Positions 4,805-9,805 of a DNA stretch of 10,126 bases are shown piece after piece (position 1 is the stretch's first letter; each line of letters opens with the position of its first letter). Under the pieces are notes generated by a model. That model had not been told where the DNA came from and made no database searches. It worked only from the letters and a program-made list of their open reading frames with translations. Where the stretch lies: assembly GCA_904420255.1 (NCBI GenBank), contig CAJFUT010000180.1, positions 1 to 10,126 of the forward strand. The letters run 5' to 3'. The DNA is from an uncultured Angelakisella sp. (lineage in GTDB: Bacteria; Bacillota; Clostridia; Oscillospirales; Ruminococcaceae). Both the position numbers and the translations under genes were made by a program.

Positions 4805-5374
4805 TCAGGCGGCGGCGCGGACAGGGCGCTGCCGGTCCAGGATTTTCATGACGATGACGGCGGCCACGGCGGTGAGGATGATCTCGGGGATCATGTAGCT
4901 GCCGTTGTAGGTGAGGGAGTAGAGCCAGACGGGCATCCCCTCGGGGGCATAGCCGCCCCAGATAAGAACGCCGGAAAGGAAGCTGCACAGGTACCGAAGC
5001 AGGCCGGTGACCACTGTCCCAACGGCGGTTTTCACCGAGGTGTTCTTGAAGGGGGCGCCGAAGACGCAGGCCAGGCCCATGACGGTGTAGGCCACCACAT
5101 AGTCCAGCAGGATGCACAGCAGCATGGCGCCGAAGGTGGTGCAGTAGAGGACGTTTTCAAAGCCCAGCAGCATCTGGATGAGGCTGAAGATAAAGCCGGT
5201 GAAAAGCCCCCACTTGGGGCCGTGGCGGAAGGAGGCCACCACCAGGGGCATCATGCTGCAGGCGGTGATGGAGCCCCCCTGGGGCAGCTCGAAGATGGGG
5301 ATATAGCCCAGGATGGTGGCGAGGGCGATCATCAGGGCGCATTCGACAAGGGTTTTGGTTTTGGTGCTTCTCAT
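4805..5374 (-). CDS. thiT: ThiT, thiamine-specific S component of an ECF transporter
   Basis: A 189-residue integral membrane protein with about six hydrophobic segments. It would capture thiamine and deliver it to the shared ECF energising module (EcfA, EcfA', EcfT), which is not in this window. Family signatures are ELPQGGSIT (29-37), FRHGPKWGLFTG (49-60), RYLCSFLSGVLIWGGYAPEG (127-146) and YNGSYMIPEI (156-165). N157, Y152 and W139 fall at the spacing I recall for thiamine-contacting residues of the Lactococcus protein. The contact histidine expected 26 residues before N157 is Ser131 here. The ATG has a strong TTAGGAGGAA ribosome binding site. A TPP riboswitch upstream makes thiamine uptake the likely job and predicts repression when TPP is abundant. 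Confidence 0.93.
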   Translation of the reverse strand: MRSTKTKTLVECALMIALATILGYIPIFELPQGGSITACSMMPLVVASFRHGPKWGLFTGFIFSLIQMLLGFENVLYCTTFGAMLLCILLDYVVAYTVMGLACVFGAPFKNTSVKTAVGTVVTGLLRYLCSFLSGVLIWGGYAPEGMPVWLYSLTYNGSYMIPEIILTAVAAVIVMKILDRQRPVRAAA

Positions 5375-5459: not shown

Positions 5460-5477
5460 GCACGGAAAAAACATATG

Positions 5478-5570
5478 TCCCTTCCTACGCTGGCATGATC
5501 CAGATCAGGTTGAAGGGTCATGGGATACCGTCCCATATCTCAGCCCGCACATACGGACCCCCCTGGTTGC
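5478..5570 (-). promoter_or_regulatory. TPP riboswitch (THI box) controlling thiT
   Basis: The minus strand carries the hallmark THI-box elements in order. GGGGGGTCCG with CGGGCTGAGA forms the arm containing the conserved CTGAGA. Next is a stem GGGAC/GTCCC-like (ATGGGACGGTATCCCAT), then ACCCTTCAACCTGATCTGG, ATCATGCCAGC and GTAGGAAGGG. The aptamer starts at about the predicted transcription start of the promoter at 5577-5605 and is followed by a terminator hairpin, so binding of TPP should stop transcription before thiT. Confidence 0.95.
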
Positions 5571-5576
5571 TGCACT

Positions 5577-6513: not shown

Positions 6514-7173
6514 ATGACCCTTGGAGAAAAGCTGAAAATGTACAGGACAGGCAGGGGACTGTCCCAGGAAAAAGTGGCGGAGCTGGTGGGCGTGAGCCGG
6601 CAGGCGGTGACGAAATGGGAAAACAACCAGACGGTCCCCAGCACAGATAATTTGATGGCCCTGGCGTCCATTTATCAGGTATCCCTGGATGATCTGGCGG
6701 AGGGCAGGCGGGACGGCAGGAAAAAGGAGAAGGAAATCCTCCATGCCAACCTGACCCTGATTGGGATTATCCTCCAGACAGCCTTTTTGAACGCGGCCAT
6801 GCAGCCCTTTCAGTTGCCCCCCTCCCTGAGGGCCGCGGAGATTGCGGTCAAGCTGGTCCCGCTGTTCGCCGCGTCTGTTTGGATGGCACTTAACCTGCGG
6901 TACGAAAAGGACCCGGCGCGGCGGAGCAGAAACGCCCGGATCGAGCTGCTTTACTGCCTGGTTCAGGCCGGCATCGCCCTGTTCGGCCATTACAGCGGCT
7001 GGCACTGGGCGGGGACCCTGCTGCTGATGGCGATTGCCCTGCTCTATATTTTTGTCGTCAACCCCAGGTATATGAACCGGCGGCTGACCAGGGGCTTTGG
7101 GGAGCCGGCGGGCAGCGGGGACCCGCTGGGCGTTTCCCGGGGCTGCCCTCCCGGAAAATCAAAAAAAGATTGA
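6514..7173 (+). CDS. XRE-family HTH regulator with C-terminal membrane domain
   Basis: A 219-residue protein with an N-terminal helix-turn-helix of the XRE/Cro type (about residues 5-61). The typical core LSQEKVAELVGVSRQAVTKWE (16-36) is followed by VPSTDNLMALASIYQVSLDDL. A charged linker (RRDGRKKEKE) leads to about four hydrophobic segments (roughly 76-96, 107-127, 143-160, 164-183) and a polar tail. It would be a DNA-binding protein tethered to the membrane, perhaps reporting envelope state, a layout common in Clostridia. The target is unknown; the inverted repeat at 6441-6455 is a candidate self-operator. Codons such as AAA, ATT and TTT seem more frequent here than in the PBP or ligase genes, which could mean a different origin. 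The last codon overlaps the -35 box of the next operon. Confidence 0.85.
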   Translation: MTLGEKLKMYRTGRGLSQEKVAELVGVSRQAVTKWENNQTVPSTDNLMALASIYQVSLDDLAEGRRDGRKKEKEILHANLTLIGIILQTAFLNAAMQPFQLPPSLRAAEIAVKLVPLFAASVWMALNLRYEKDPARRSRNARIELLYCLVQAGIALFGHYSGWHWAGTLLLMAIALLYIFVVNPRYMNRRLTRGFGEPAGSGDPLGVSRGCPPGKSKKD

Positions 7174-7198
7174 CATTTCCGGCGGGATGGTTTATCAT
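7170..7198 (+). promoter_or_regulatory. Sigma-A promoter of the T-box operon
   Basis: A perfect TTGACA (7170-7175) is 17 bases from TATCAT (7193-7198), with an A/T-rich stretch after it. The -35 box includes the TGA stop codon of the preceding XRE gene. Transcription should begin near 7205, at the 5' edge of the T-box leader. Confidence 0.88.
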
Positions 7199-7204
7199 AA
7201 GAAA

Positions 7205-7490
7205 AAATTCAATCCCCAAGCAAAGCGATGATAAGGACGCGGCAGCTCCATAAGGGCCTGCAGAGAGTATGCGGTTGGTGCAAGCATACGGATCCGGGAG
7301 CTGTCCAATCACCTTGGAGCCGGGACTGGAACGCCTGAGGGCAAGTATAGCATCCCCGTTTGGCCTCGTTATCGGCCGGGAATTGTTGGATTCCTCATGA
7401 GGGGCACGGCCTTGGCCGTGCAAATTGGGTGGTACCGCGAGCTGATTGCAGCCCGTCCCATGCTTTGGCGTGGGATGGGTTTTTTGTTGT
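7205..7490 (+). promoter_or_regulatory. T-box leader riboswitch (tRNA-sensing), probably isoleucine
   Basis: All core T-box parts are visible. Stem I has the kink-turn side GATGA and AAGG (7233-7236) facing CCTT (7312-7315), a helix CAGCTCC/GGAGCTG (7243-7249 with 7297-7303), the AGAGAG motif (7262-7267), and the distal hairpin GTATGC/GCATAC with loop GGTTGGTGCAA. A stem III-like hairpin GCACGGC/GCCGTGC is at 7404-7421. The T-box sequence GGGTGGTACCGCG (7427-7439) and CGTCCC (7454-7459) form the antiterminator. The specifier, aligned to the base before the CCTT strand, reads ATC (7308-7310, Ile). The UGGU bulge fits a discriminator A73, as in tRNA-Ile, and argues against the Ser or Asn readings in other frames. 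Uncharged tRNA would favour antitermination and expression of the two downstream genes. Confidence 0.95.
7451..7486 (+). terminator. T-box regulatory terminator
   Basis: CCCGTCCCATGC (7452-7463) pairs with GCGTGGGATGGG (7468-7479), with two G/T wobbles, around a TTTG loop, followed by a run of T. Its left arm contains the CGTCCC needed for the antiterminator, so the two structures exclude each other. Confidence 0.93.
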
Positions 7491-7539
7491 TTTTGGACCG
7501 GGAAGCAGTGGGTAAGACGAAGAAAGGAAGGTTTTTGGG

Positions 7540-8136
7540 ATGGAAGTCAAGCTGTATGAAATCGCGGAGCGAATTCGGTGCCTGCGGGAGATTCTGGGCA
7601 TTTCGGTGGAGGAGATGGCGGAGGCCTGTATGGTCAGCCCGGAGGAATATGCCCGGCTGGAGGAGGGAAACGACGATTTCTCCTATTCCTTCCTGGTCAA
7701 GTGCGCCGAAACCCTGGGGGTGGACACGGTGGAGCTGATTACCGGGGAAACCCCCAAGCTCTCCTTCTACAGCATCATCCGCAAGGGCCGGGGGCTGCCC
7801 ATCAAGCGCCGGAAGGGCTTTACCTACGACCACATGGGTTACCTCTTCCGGAGCCGGGAGTGCGAGCCCATGCTGGTGGTGGCCCCCTATTCCGAGGAGG
7901 AGCAGGACGCCCCCATCCATCTTTCCCACCACTCCGGCCAGGAGTTCGACTATATCCTCAAGGGCTCCCTGAAAATCCAGTTTGAGGGGGGCGGCAGCCA
8001 CATCCTCAACGAGGGGGACTGCGTCTATTACGACTCCGGCCACGGCCATGGCATGATCGCTGTGGGAGGCGAGGACTGCCAGTTTTTGGCCATCGTCCTC
8101 AAAAAGGACAAAAAGGACAAAGGGGAGGGGAAGTAA
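7540..8136 (+). CDS. XRE-cupin transcriptional regulator
   Basis: A 198-residue regulator with an N-terminal XRE-type helix-turn-helix (about residues 7-66: IRCLREILGISVEEMAEAC, then SPEEYARLEEG) and a C-terminal cupin sensor domain (about 105-188). Cupin motif 1 is around HLSHHSGQEFDYILKG (127-142, with H130, H131 and E135). Motif 2 is GDCVYYDSGHGHGM (159-172, with H170), so metal or small-ligand binding is plausible but the pattern is not fully canonical. The tail is Lys/Asp-rich (KKDKKDKGEGK), encoded by a perfect 9-base tandem duplication. AAGGAAGG precedes the ATG. It is the first gene after the T-box and ends 4 bases before the acyl-CoA synthetase, so it is probably the operon's own ligand-responsive regulator. 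The ligand is unknown; the neighbour's substrate or product is a fair guess. Confidence 0.87.
   Translation: MEVKLYEIAERIRCLREILGISVEEMAEACMVSPEEYARLEEGNDDFSYSFLVKCAETLGVDTVELITGETPKLSFYSIIRKGRGLPIKRRKGFTYDHMGYLFRSRECEPMLVVAPYSEEEQDAPIHLSHHSGQEFDYILKGSLKIQFEGGGSHILNEGDCVYYDSGHGHGMIAVGGEDCQFLAIVLKKDKKDKGEGK
8101..8118 (+). repeat. Perfect 9-base tandem duplication
   Basis: AAAAAGGAC occurs twice in a row, followed by a partial third copy (AAAGG). In the regulator it encodes the KKDKKDK tail, and it lies just before the next gene's ribosome binding site. Slippage here would change the tail length by 3 residues without breaking the frame. Confidence 0.8.
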
Positions 8137-8140
8137 GCCC

Positions 8141-9805
8141 ATGGAAAAGATGGAGCTTTTGTATCAGAAATACTGCCGGGAGGAATTTGACGAAAAGGGG
8201 ATGCTGGTGAAGTTCCAGCCGGTGGTGCCGGAGGATTTCAACTTCGCCTACGACTGCGTGGACTATATCGCGGACCACCAGCCGGACCGCCGGGCCATGG
8301 TCTGGTGCGACGACAAGGGCCACGAGCGTACCTTTTCCTTTGAGGATATGCGCCGCTGGAGCAACAGGACCGCCAATTACTTCCTCAGCCAGGGAATCAA
8401 AAAAGGCGACATGGTGATGGTGATCCTCAAGCGCCACTATCAGTTCTGGTTCACCATCCTGGCTCTCCACAAAATCGGGGCGGTGATCATCCCCGCCACC
8501 AACCTTCTCACCAAGAAGGATGTCATCTACCGGGTCAACGCCGCCGACGTGGCCGCCATCGTCTGCACCGCCGACGGGGAGGTTTCCCACGCTGTGGAGG
8601 AGGCGGAGCCGGAGTTTGGCGCCCCGGTGAAGAAGTTCCTGGTCCACGGCGGCCGGGAGGGCTGGCACGACTTTGACCGGGAGCTGGAGGGGTACTCCCC
8701 TGAGCTGGAGCGGATCCCCAATAAAAGCGCCGACCCCATGCTCCTCTACTTCACCTCCGGCACCACCGGCTACCCCAAAATGGTGATCCACAACTACGCC
8801 TATCCCATCGGCCACATCATCACCGCCCGGCACTGGCACAACGTGGTGCCGGACGGCCTCCATCTCAGCGTGGCGGACACCGGCTGGGGCAAGGCGGTTT
8901 GGGGGAAGCTCTACGGCCAGTGGCTCTGCGGCGCAGGGGTCTTTGTCTACGATTTCGATAAATTCACCCCCAAGGACCTGCTGCACAAAATCGAGCAGTA
9001 CCGCATCACCACCTTCTGCGCTCCTCCCACCATCTACCGCTTCTTCATCAAGGAAGGGATGGAGGGCTACGACCTTTCCAGCCTGGTTTACGCCACCACC
9101 GCCGGGGAGGCCCTGAACCCCGAGGTCTATAACCGCTTCCTGGAATACACCGGCCTCAAGCTGATGGAGGCCTTCGGCCAGACCGAAACCACCGTCCAGC
9201 TGGCCAACCTGGTGGGCTCCACCCCCAAGCCCGGCTCCATGGGACGGCCCAGCCCCCTCTACGACATCGCCGTAGTGGACAGCGACGGCCAGCCGGTTTC
9301 CACCGGCGACGTGGGTGAGATCGTCATCCGGGCGGACCGGGAGAACCCGCCCACCGGCCTTTTCATGGGCTACTACCGGGACGGGGAAAAGACCCTGGAG
9401 GCCTGGCACGATGGCTATTATCACACCGGGGACACCGTCTGGCAGGATGAAGACGGGTATTACTGGTATGTGGGCCGCACCGACGACGTCATCAAGGCCT
9501 CGGGCTACCGCATCGGCCCCTTCGAGATCGAGAGCGTCCTGATGGAGCACCCGGCGGTGCTGGAGTGCGCCGTCACCGGGGCGCCGGACCCCATCCGGGG
9601 CACGGTGGTGAAGGCCACCATCGTCCTGATGAAGGGGTATGAGGCCACCCCGGAACTGACCAAGGAGCTTCAGGACTATGTGAAGCACCAGACCGCTCCC
9701 TATAAATACCCCCGGATCGTGGAGTATGTGGAGAGCCTTCCCAAAACCCTCAGCGGCAAAATCCGCCGGGTGGAGCTGAAGGAAGGACGCCAGCCCCAGG
9801 GCTGA
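8141..9805 (+). CDS. AMP-forming acyl-CoA synthetase, medium-chain (ACSM/MACS) type
   Basis: A 554-residue adenylate-forming enzyme that activates a carboxylic acid with ATP and CoA to acyl-CoA, AMP and PPi. Its motifs run in the family order: TSGTTGYPK (205-213), DTGWGKAVWGKLYGQW (ACSM-like), CAPPTIYRFF, TTAGEALNPE, EAFGQTET (343-350), YHTGD (427-431), VGRTDDVIKASGYRIGP with R446, and TLSGKIRR with the catalytic lysine K540. The intact A10 lysine and the GWGK stretch favour the medium-chain/branched-acid group over plain acetyl-CoA synthetase. The start is preceded by GGGGAGGGG. It is the last gene of the T-box operon, so its expression should rise when the sensed aminoacyl-tRNA is scarce. 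2-methylbutyrate is a reasonable substrate guess given the Ile-type specifier; isobutyrate, isovalerate or an aryl acid are alternatives. Confidence 0.92.
   Translation: MEKMELLYQKYCREEFDEKGMLVKFQPVVPEDFNFAYDCVDYIADHQPDRRAMVWCDDKGHERTFSFEDMRRWSNRTANYFLSQGIKKGDMVMVILKRHYQFWFTILALHKIGAVIIPATNLLTKKDVIYRVNAADVAAIVCTADGEVSHAVEEAEPEFGAPVKKFLVHGGREGWHDFDRELEGYSPELERIPNKSADPMLLYFTSGTTGYPKMVIHNYAYPIGHIITARHWHNVVPDGLHLSVADTGWGKAVWGKLYGQWLCGAGVFVYDFDKFTPKDLLHKIEQYRITTFCAPPTIYRFFIKEGMEGYDLSSLVYATTAGEALNPEVYNRFLEYTGLKLMEAFGQTETTVQLANLVGSTPKPGSMGRPSPLYDIAVVDSDGQPVSTGDVGEIVIRADRENPPTGLFMGYYRDGEKTLEAWHDGYYHTGDTVWQDEDGYYWYVGRTDDVIKASGYRIGPFEIESVLMEHPAVLECAVTGAPDPIRGTVVKATIVLMKGYEATPELTKELQDYVKHQTAPYKYPRIVEYVESLPKTLSGKIRRVELKEGRQPQG

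Follow-up and report, generated by a model that had tools for sequence, protein, structure and literature searches.

The stretch analysed here, called the window, comprises the 10,126 nucleotides of contig CAJFUT010000180.1 (G000:C180) from a metagenome-assembled genome of an uncultured Angelakisella sp. (GCA_904420255.1; 1.98 Mb in 331 contigs). It contains a T-box leader RNA followed by a gene for a protein with an XRE-type helix-turn-helix and a cupin domain, and by a gene for an adenosine monophosphate (AMP)-forming acyl-coenzyme A (acyl-CoA) synthetase, referred to below as the ligase (Table 1). An earlier note, made from the sequence alone, had described this layout as an isoleucine (Ile)-type T-box whose cargo is neither a tRNA synthetase, an amino-acid biosynthetic enzyme nor a transporter, and had suggested that 2-methylbutyrate is captured for isoleucine synthesis. 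The layout of T-box and genes is confirmed, and Pfam assigned both genes as stated there. The order T-box, XRE-cupin gene and ligase gene was found again in many relatives. Among named records, those of Angelakisella (Oscillospiraceae) contain the sequences closest to the ligase.

Table 1. Features of the T-box locus in the window.
Feature	Position	Strand	Basis
Putative sigma-70-like promoter, TTGACA - 17 nucleotides - TATCAT	7170..7198	+	Consensus match read from sequence
T-box leader RNA (RF00230), Stem I to antiterminator	7219..7463	+	Rfam covariance model, full-length
Specifier codon ATC (AUC, Ile)	7308..7310	+	Rfam alignment and family-specific Stem I model
Antiterminator T-box core GGTGGTACCGCG	7428..7439	+	Read from sequence
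Intrinsic terminator: hairpin 7450-7481, then T-run	7450..7494	+	Fold and sequence
XRE-type helix-turn-helix and cupin protein, 198 amino acids; putative regulator or sensory partner of the ligase	7540..8136	+	Pfam HTH_19, Cupin_2
AMP-forming acyl-CoA synthetase, 554 amino acids; likely 2-methylbutyrate-CoA ligase	8141..9805	+	Pfam AMP-binding, AMP-binding_C

The leader matches the Rfam model RF00230 with 92.1 bits (E 5.3e-21), and the whole model is covered. The gathering score of this model is 93; the leader is 0.9 bit below it, hence it is not listed in a default Rfam scan and was found with a restricted scan. In a relative (L351), the leader ahead of the first ligase unit scores 95.0 bits, above the gathering score. 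Two placements, the Rfam alignment and a family-specific Stem I model, put the codon AUC at the specifier position, which agrees with the claimed Ile type. Sequence and folding show that a UGGN antiterminator and a competing terminator are both present; the terminator hairpin overlaps the 3′ arm of the antiterminator as placed by the Rfam alignment, and the competing fold is strong. The UGGU at 7430-7433 would presumably base-pair with the terminal ACCA of tRNAs whose discriminator base is A. The leader is conserved in relatives, and its Stem I pairs covary. It resembles known Ile T-boxes in the Stem I specifier, the antiterminator core and the competing terminator, but differs from them in its cargo, an acyl-CoA synthetase instead of ileS, ilv genes or a transporter.

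The ligase contains the motifs TSGTTG, FGQTET, YHTGD and SGK. We take the glycine of FGQTET to occupy the place of a tryptophan in acetyl-CoA synthetases. The closest solved relative is PDB entry 3ETC (722 bits, query residues 12-552), which is the archaeal synthetase that the earlier note had mentioned as preferring 2-methylbutyrate. This enzyme, MacsMa from Methanosarcina acetivorans, is described as preferring 2-methylbutyrate and as carrying a glycine where acetyl-CoA synthetases carry a tryptophan (PMC10455477). The window ligase is thus like the archaeal enzyme in full-length homology and in the glycine motif. The best NCBIfam family is MbcS (NF047394; 480.6 bits). MbcS of Staphylococcus aureus is reported to accept 2-methylbutyrate and isobutyrate, butyrate and isovalerate being poor substrates and activity with acetate undetectable, and to feed fatty-acid synthesis (PMC10026030). 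Readings of the window enzyme as an acetate-specific or an aryl-CoA ligase were dropped on homology, that is on the NCBIfam and 3ETC matches, and a 2-methylbutyrate-CoA ligase is the likely assignment. In a plasmid collection, relatives of the ligase that are 55-59% identical (up to 58.6%) were found in records of Bacteroides, Parabacteroides, Phocaeicola and Prevotella (H1-H4).

The specifiers of T-boxes linked to such ligases were read with a covariance model made from an alignment of 27 Stem I sequences from related loci. In the lower helix beside the specifier (columns 27-30 with 115-118) four of four pairs have at least one sequence that is changed on both sides, which fixes the reading register. 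The model was run on 61 sources, 77 sources, 79 of 80 named loci (L243 was left out), 20 tandem loci and 27 further loci; it was used instead of a search with the core motif, which was too strict and missed leaders starting with AGTGG. Altogether, 138 ligase-linked T-boxes (133 distinct sequences, from sets that share species) were read, with 105 ATC, 28 GTA and 5 GTC specifiers and no other codon, corresponding to 105 Ile and 33 valine (Val) T-boxes. The family set contributed 53 (37 ATC, 16 GTA or GTC), the named set 40 (all ATC), the tandem set 35 (18 ATC, 17 GTN) and the further loci of the order 10 (all ATC). Rows in which the T-box precedes another gene or has a different place in the locus are not counted (A2, two; A3, eight; A4, four; A5, three); those of A3 include a stray match (L148; 39 nucleotides, E 0.54) that was discarded as noise. 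On T-boxes without a ligase the same model reads TTC, TAC, TGG, GCC, ATG and leucine (Leu) codons, which shows that its readings extend beyond Ile and Val. One TTC leader (L010) is followed by a gene that by eye resembles pheS; in L014, where the gene looks like thrS, the model reading is off by one base. By eye, the specifier of the paralogue described below was ambiguous between GTA and the stop codon TAG; the latter was excluded by the aligned Stem I, which gives GTA or GTC. The two acids accepted by MbcS would fit Ile and Val, and isovalerate, the acid that would fit Leu, is a poor substrate; by analogy, this selectivity has the same pattern as the specifiers.

Ile leaders were found in named organisms as well, namely Soleaferrea (L240), Anaerotruncus colihominis (L241) and a metagenome-assembled genome of Ruminococcus flavefaciens (L265). 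One locus (L288) has a T-box core near the contig start and no Stem I match, and no T-box was found in G089. Several loci are truncated at contig ends, where the absence of a T-box means little. Four ligases without T-box (L064, L071, L077, L079) are located near genes that by eye resemble those of homoserine dehydrogenase, homoserine kinase or aspartokinase.

The genome of the window has nine T-box matches. One of them, C143:1430-1702 (L101), reads GTA and precedes a ligase paralogue (C143:1832-3454) that is 52% identical to the window ligase. The same pair of Ile and Val ligases is present in both other searched genomes of the genus (L102, L103). In all three the Val T-box immediately precedes the paralogue, and the search for cupin relatives upstream of it gave none. 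In a tree of 124 ligase sequences of at least 450 amino acids (shorter ones were excluded and long open frames trimmed to 575) the ligases under Val T-boxes take up three or more distinct positions: they make up a paralogue clade of their own and also include the second ligase of the tandem pairs in L125 and L131 as well as that of L074, which has an Ile-type ligase as its neighbour. The ligase of L066 is likewise under a Val T-box, but its position in the tree is poorly supported. In L074 (G116) the order is Val T-box, cupin gene, a gene that by eye resembles an M20 amidohydrolase, and ligase; release of the acid from an N-acyl conjugate is a possible function of the additional gene. Two other T-boxes of the own genome, in L006 (C18) and L012 (C312), read TTC and TGG, and each is located ahead of a gene that by eye resembles a TrpX-type substrate-binding protein.

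Some relatives appear to hold the complete pathway within a single gene cluster. L209 (G105) contains an Ile T-box, a cupin-ligase open reading frame, a Val T-box, a second cupin-ligase open reading frame, an ATPase gene, genes for the subunits VorB, VorA and VorC of a 2-oxoacid:ferredoxin oxidoreductase and a LeuA-like gene; the ATPase is P-loop-like by eye and gave no family match. In L210 (G037) an Ile unit and a Val unit are followed by genes for a carbon-nitrogen hydrolase, a class IV aminotransferase, an ATPase-like protein, a 4Fe-4S ferredoxin, VorB, VorA and VorC, all on one strand and tightly packed. From the matches listed in 247 genomes of the order, 20 tandem loci with two ligases about 1 kilobase apart were selected. 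The loci were chosen, and the prediction of Ile followed by Val specifiers together with Vor genes was fixed, before inspection. More than 20 such loci exist, and a pair at a contig end of G291 was left out; 19 of the 20 genomes are outside the family of the window and one (G373) is inside. Ile and then Val specifiers were found in 16 loci, and none contradicts the prediction, since no other amino acid was read on any ligase. Relatives of the ATPase-VorB-VorA-VorC genes are located downstream on the same strand in 20/20 loci, and an aminotransferase gene is present within the stretch examined in 15. The ketol-acid reductoisomerase gene ilvC was not found in 19 of the 20 genomes (G219 has it) compared with 6 of 20 comparison genomes (p 4e-5), which were the first genomes of the order listed as having no ligase match at E 1e-180, a non-random choice that includes three genomes of the family set. 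L351 carries a third T-box (10217-10455, 122 bits) that reads CTC (Leu), and the gene that follows it encodes HMGL-like and LeuA_dimer domains. In L346 and L347, divergent T-boxes of the Leu type lie upstream on the opposite strand; the genes that they precede look LeuA-like, though visual inspection of the first residues is weak evidence. The Val counterpart and these operons with Vor subunits and aminotransferase go beyond the earlier note.

Cupin and acyl-CoA synthetase are joined in a single open frame of about 750-800 amino acids in nine loci (L084, L085, L088, L090-L093, L209 and L210). In the two fused frames that were tested, no Pfam helix-turn-helix match was found at E 1e-5. This suggests that the fused cupin part may sense the acid or its adenylate rather than bind DNA, and the cupin protein of the window may be such a sensor as well.

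The classical pathway was searched for with TIGR00465 (ilvC) in 148 genomes of the family and 40 of the order, and with further models in chosen genome sets (ilvD 22, POR_N 14, HMGL 22, ilvB 18, Aminotran_4 18 genomes). Neither ilvC nor ilvD nor ilvB was found in any of the three searched genomes of the genus. In the family, ilvC is present in 89 of 148 genomes; one of the ilvC hits counted as present, that of G011, is a fragment below cut-off. With a threshold of E 1e-150 or better, 93 family genomes have the ligase. Among them, ilvC was not found in 28/39 with a ligase T-box and in 11/54 without (p 8e-7); if only genomes of at least 95 completeness are taken, the figures are 19/29 with a T-box ligase versus 6/39 others (p 3e-5). 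All 14 genomes that have both Ile and Val T-box ligases are without an ilvC match. In these 14, ilvD was above cut-off in none (weaker matches in G066 and G105) and ilvB in one (G067; weaker matches in G017 and G039). Each of the 14 encodes a VorB-sized POR_N protein (about 356-363 amino acids), confirmed as VorB by NCBIfam in the two tested, and 13 encode an Aminotran_4 protein, the exception being G105.

The own genome has an oxidoreductase of the vor/kor/ior type, which the earlier note had suggested looking for together with a complete ilv pathway. It is of the VorB type (NF005507, 535.2 bits, cut-off 399) and is encoded on contig C88; a beta subunit is encoded there as well, and the gamma subunit is not listed on C88, the only place where it was searched for. 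An Aminotran_4 protein is encoded on G000:C91, assigned at the level of Pfam, where the family also covers other aminotransferases. LeuA and citramalate synthase score above their cut-offs and are encoded by adjacent genes (L212, G000:C257, 2871-5998, minus strand).

Taken together, the T-box locus is very probably a switch that responds to isoleucine starvation and turns on the first step of another route to isoleucine; the ligase paralogue under Val control would serve valine in the same way. According to this proposal, uncharged tRNA-Ile would bind the leader, the terminator would not be formed, and the XRE-cupin protein and the ligase would be made. With adenosine triphosphate and CoA, the ligase would form 2-methylbutyryl-CoA from the 2-methylbutyrate that other gut microbes release by fermentation. 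The VorB-type oxidoreductase, working reductively with reduced ferredoxin and CO2, would produce 3-methyl-2-oxopentanoate, from which an aminotransferase would form isoleucine. The paralogue under the Val T-box would lead by equal steps from isobutyrate to valine, and 2-oxoisovalerate could also supply LeuA for leucine. In the genus this route would replace the acetohydroxyacid pathway, which was not found there. The capture of 2-methylbutyrate for isoleucine proposed in the earlier note is therewith supported by the specifier, ilvC and operon comparisons, substrate and reaction direction being predictions from sequence. The reductive direction is suggested by the logic of control, since an operon that is induced by valine shortage should make valine. 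A catabolic role was discarded, since it would be illogical for genes controlled by a T-box to degrade amino acids.

Several observations weigh against this proposal. The window ligase is below the equivalog cut-off of MbcS (850 bits). The own genome is 81% complete, its Vor genes are on another contig than the window with none of the nine T-box matches there, and citramalate synthase is kept although its product cannot become isoleucine without ilvB, ilvC and ilvD, which is unexplained. Eleven of the 39 T-box-ligase genomes do carry ilvC, and G078, which has an Ile T-box but lacks a match to ilvC, carries ilvD above cut-off. The ligase alone shows no link with ilvC, which is lacking in 39/93 genomes with and 20/55 without ligase (p 0.6), and the Fisher tests behind all p values given here ignore the kinship of the genomes. 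Aminotran_4 proteins are equally present in four of four ilvC-bearing comparison genomes, and the frequency of VorB-sized proteins is that of the 14 double-T-box genomes alone. A T-box was detected on 40 of the 79 ligases of the named set, about half of the related ligases having no detected T-box; with the Stem I model none was detected in Ruminococcus flavefaciens SAb67 and 007c (L263, L270). In four of the 20 tandem loci one or both T-boxes are missing and the prediction does not fully hold: L346 and L347 have the Ile T-box only, L353 at a contig end the Val T-box only, and L360 has three ligase matches and no T-box.

The main rival explanation is a supply of primers, 2-methylbutyryl-CoA and isobutyryl-CoA, from which branched fatty acids of the membrane would be built; induction of the ligase by the T-box would then spare isoleucine and valine. 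MbcS prefers exactly these two acids and delivers them to fatty-acid synthesis (PMC10026030), and Ile and Val specifiers without Leu would suit its selectivity equally well. We nevertheless regard primer supply as an unlikely explanation of the locus, because Vor subunits follow the ligases in all tandem loci and an aminotransferase gene in most of them; if these genes are co-transcribed and the flow is oxidative, a shortage of valine would switch on the degradation of amino acids. Nor is a link with the loss of ilvC to be expected from fatty-acid synthesis. Primer supply and the amino-acid route could also coexist. The ligase might alternatively activate propionate, with propionyl-CoA being carboxylated to 2-oxobutyrate and isoleucine made by the usual pathway. 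The formation of 2-oxobutyrate from propionyl-CoA by reductive carboxylation is cited as a known reaction (PMC7476758), and citramalate synthase, another source of 2-oxobutyrate, is kept in the own genome. This route leaves the 33 Val T-boxes among the 138 unexplained and needs the ilvB, ilvC and ilvD products that were not found in the genus, which makes it very improbable. Hardly any weight can be given to a general short-chain or aryl-acid CoA ligase behind a T-box whose main target is the XRE-cupin protein, acting as a regulator of nutrition: the position of its gene as the first behind the leader and the many ligases without detected T-box would suit it, but the Val T-box directly before the paralogue with no cupin relative upstream, the fusion of cupin and ligase elsewhere and the restriction to Ile and Val codons are not expected from it.

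The isoleucine and valine pathway proposed here has a counterpart in rumen anaerobes, where isoacids are reductively carboxylated to branched-chain amino acids (Robinson and Allison, 1969; Allison and Peel, 1971; as cited in PMC2812497 and PMC7356843). The proposed chemistry is alike, from acid to CoA thioester, 2-oxoacid and amino acid; what is seen together here are the gene set, the tRNA-coded control and the lack of ilvC. To our knowledge, the genes of the rumen route have not generally been assigned in gut clostridia. Among the matches listed from the open-licence literature, no title or beginning of an abstract joins T-boxes with isoacid ligases, and in two T-box surveys (PMC3766115, PMC2494555) acyl-CoA is absent from the main text, while the supplements may list such cases.

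We consider it rather probable, though with less confidence than for the T-box locus itself, that in many clostridia of gut and rumen, from the Oscillospiraceae and families near them, the acetohydroxyacid pathway has given way to one operon for Ile, Val and Leu from fermentation isoacids. In such an operon each ligase would have a T-box of its own, the specifier of which would label the acid that this ligase takes, the Leu T-box on the LeuA-like gene would complete the set, and the XRE-cupin protein, fused in some species, would be a sensor of acid or adenylate within a trigger enzyme. The T-box codon provides an independent label, within the sequence itself, of the amino acid that each ligase would serve, and the operons supply candidate genes for every step of the pathway. 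Genomes scored as branched-chain amino acid auxotrophs since ilvC is missing may be isoacid-dependent prototrophs; if so, predictions of cross-feeding in the gut change.

Two further features of the window lie outside the ligase locus. A thiamine pyrophosphate riboswitch (5465-5574, minus strand, 64.6 bits) precedes the gene for the thiamine transporter ThiT (4805-5374), an ordinary arrangement. The contig end (10001-10126) contains two imperfect direct copies of a 53-nucleotide repeat that are 75% identical.

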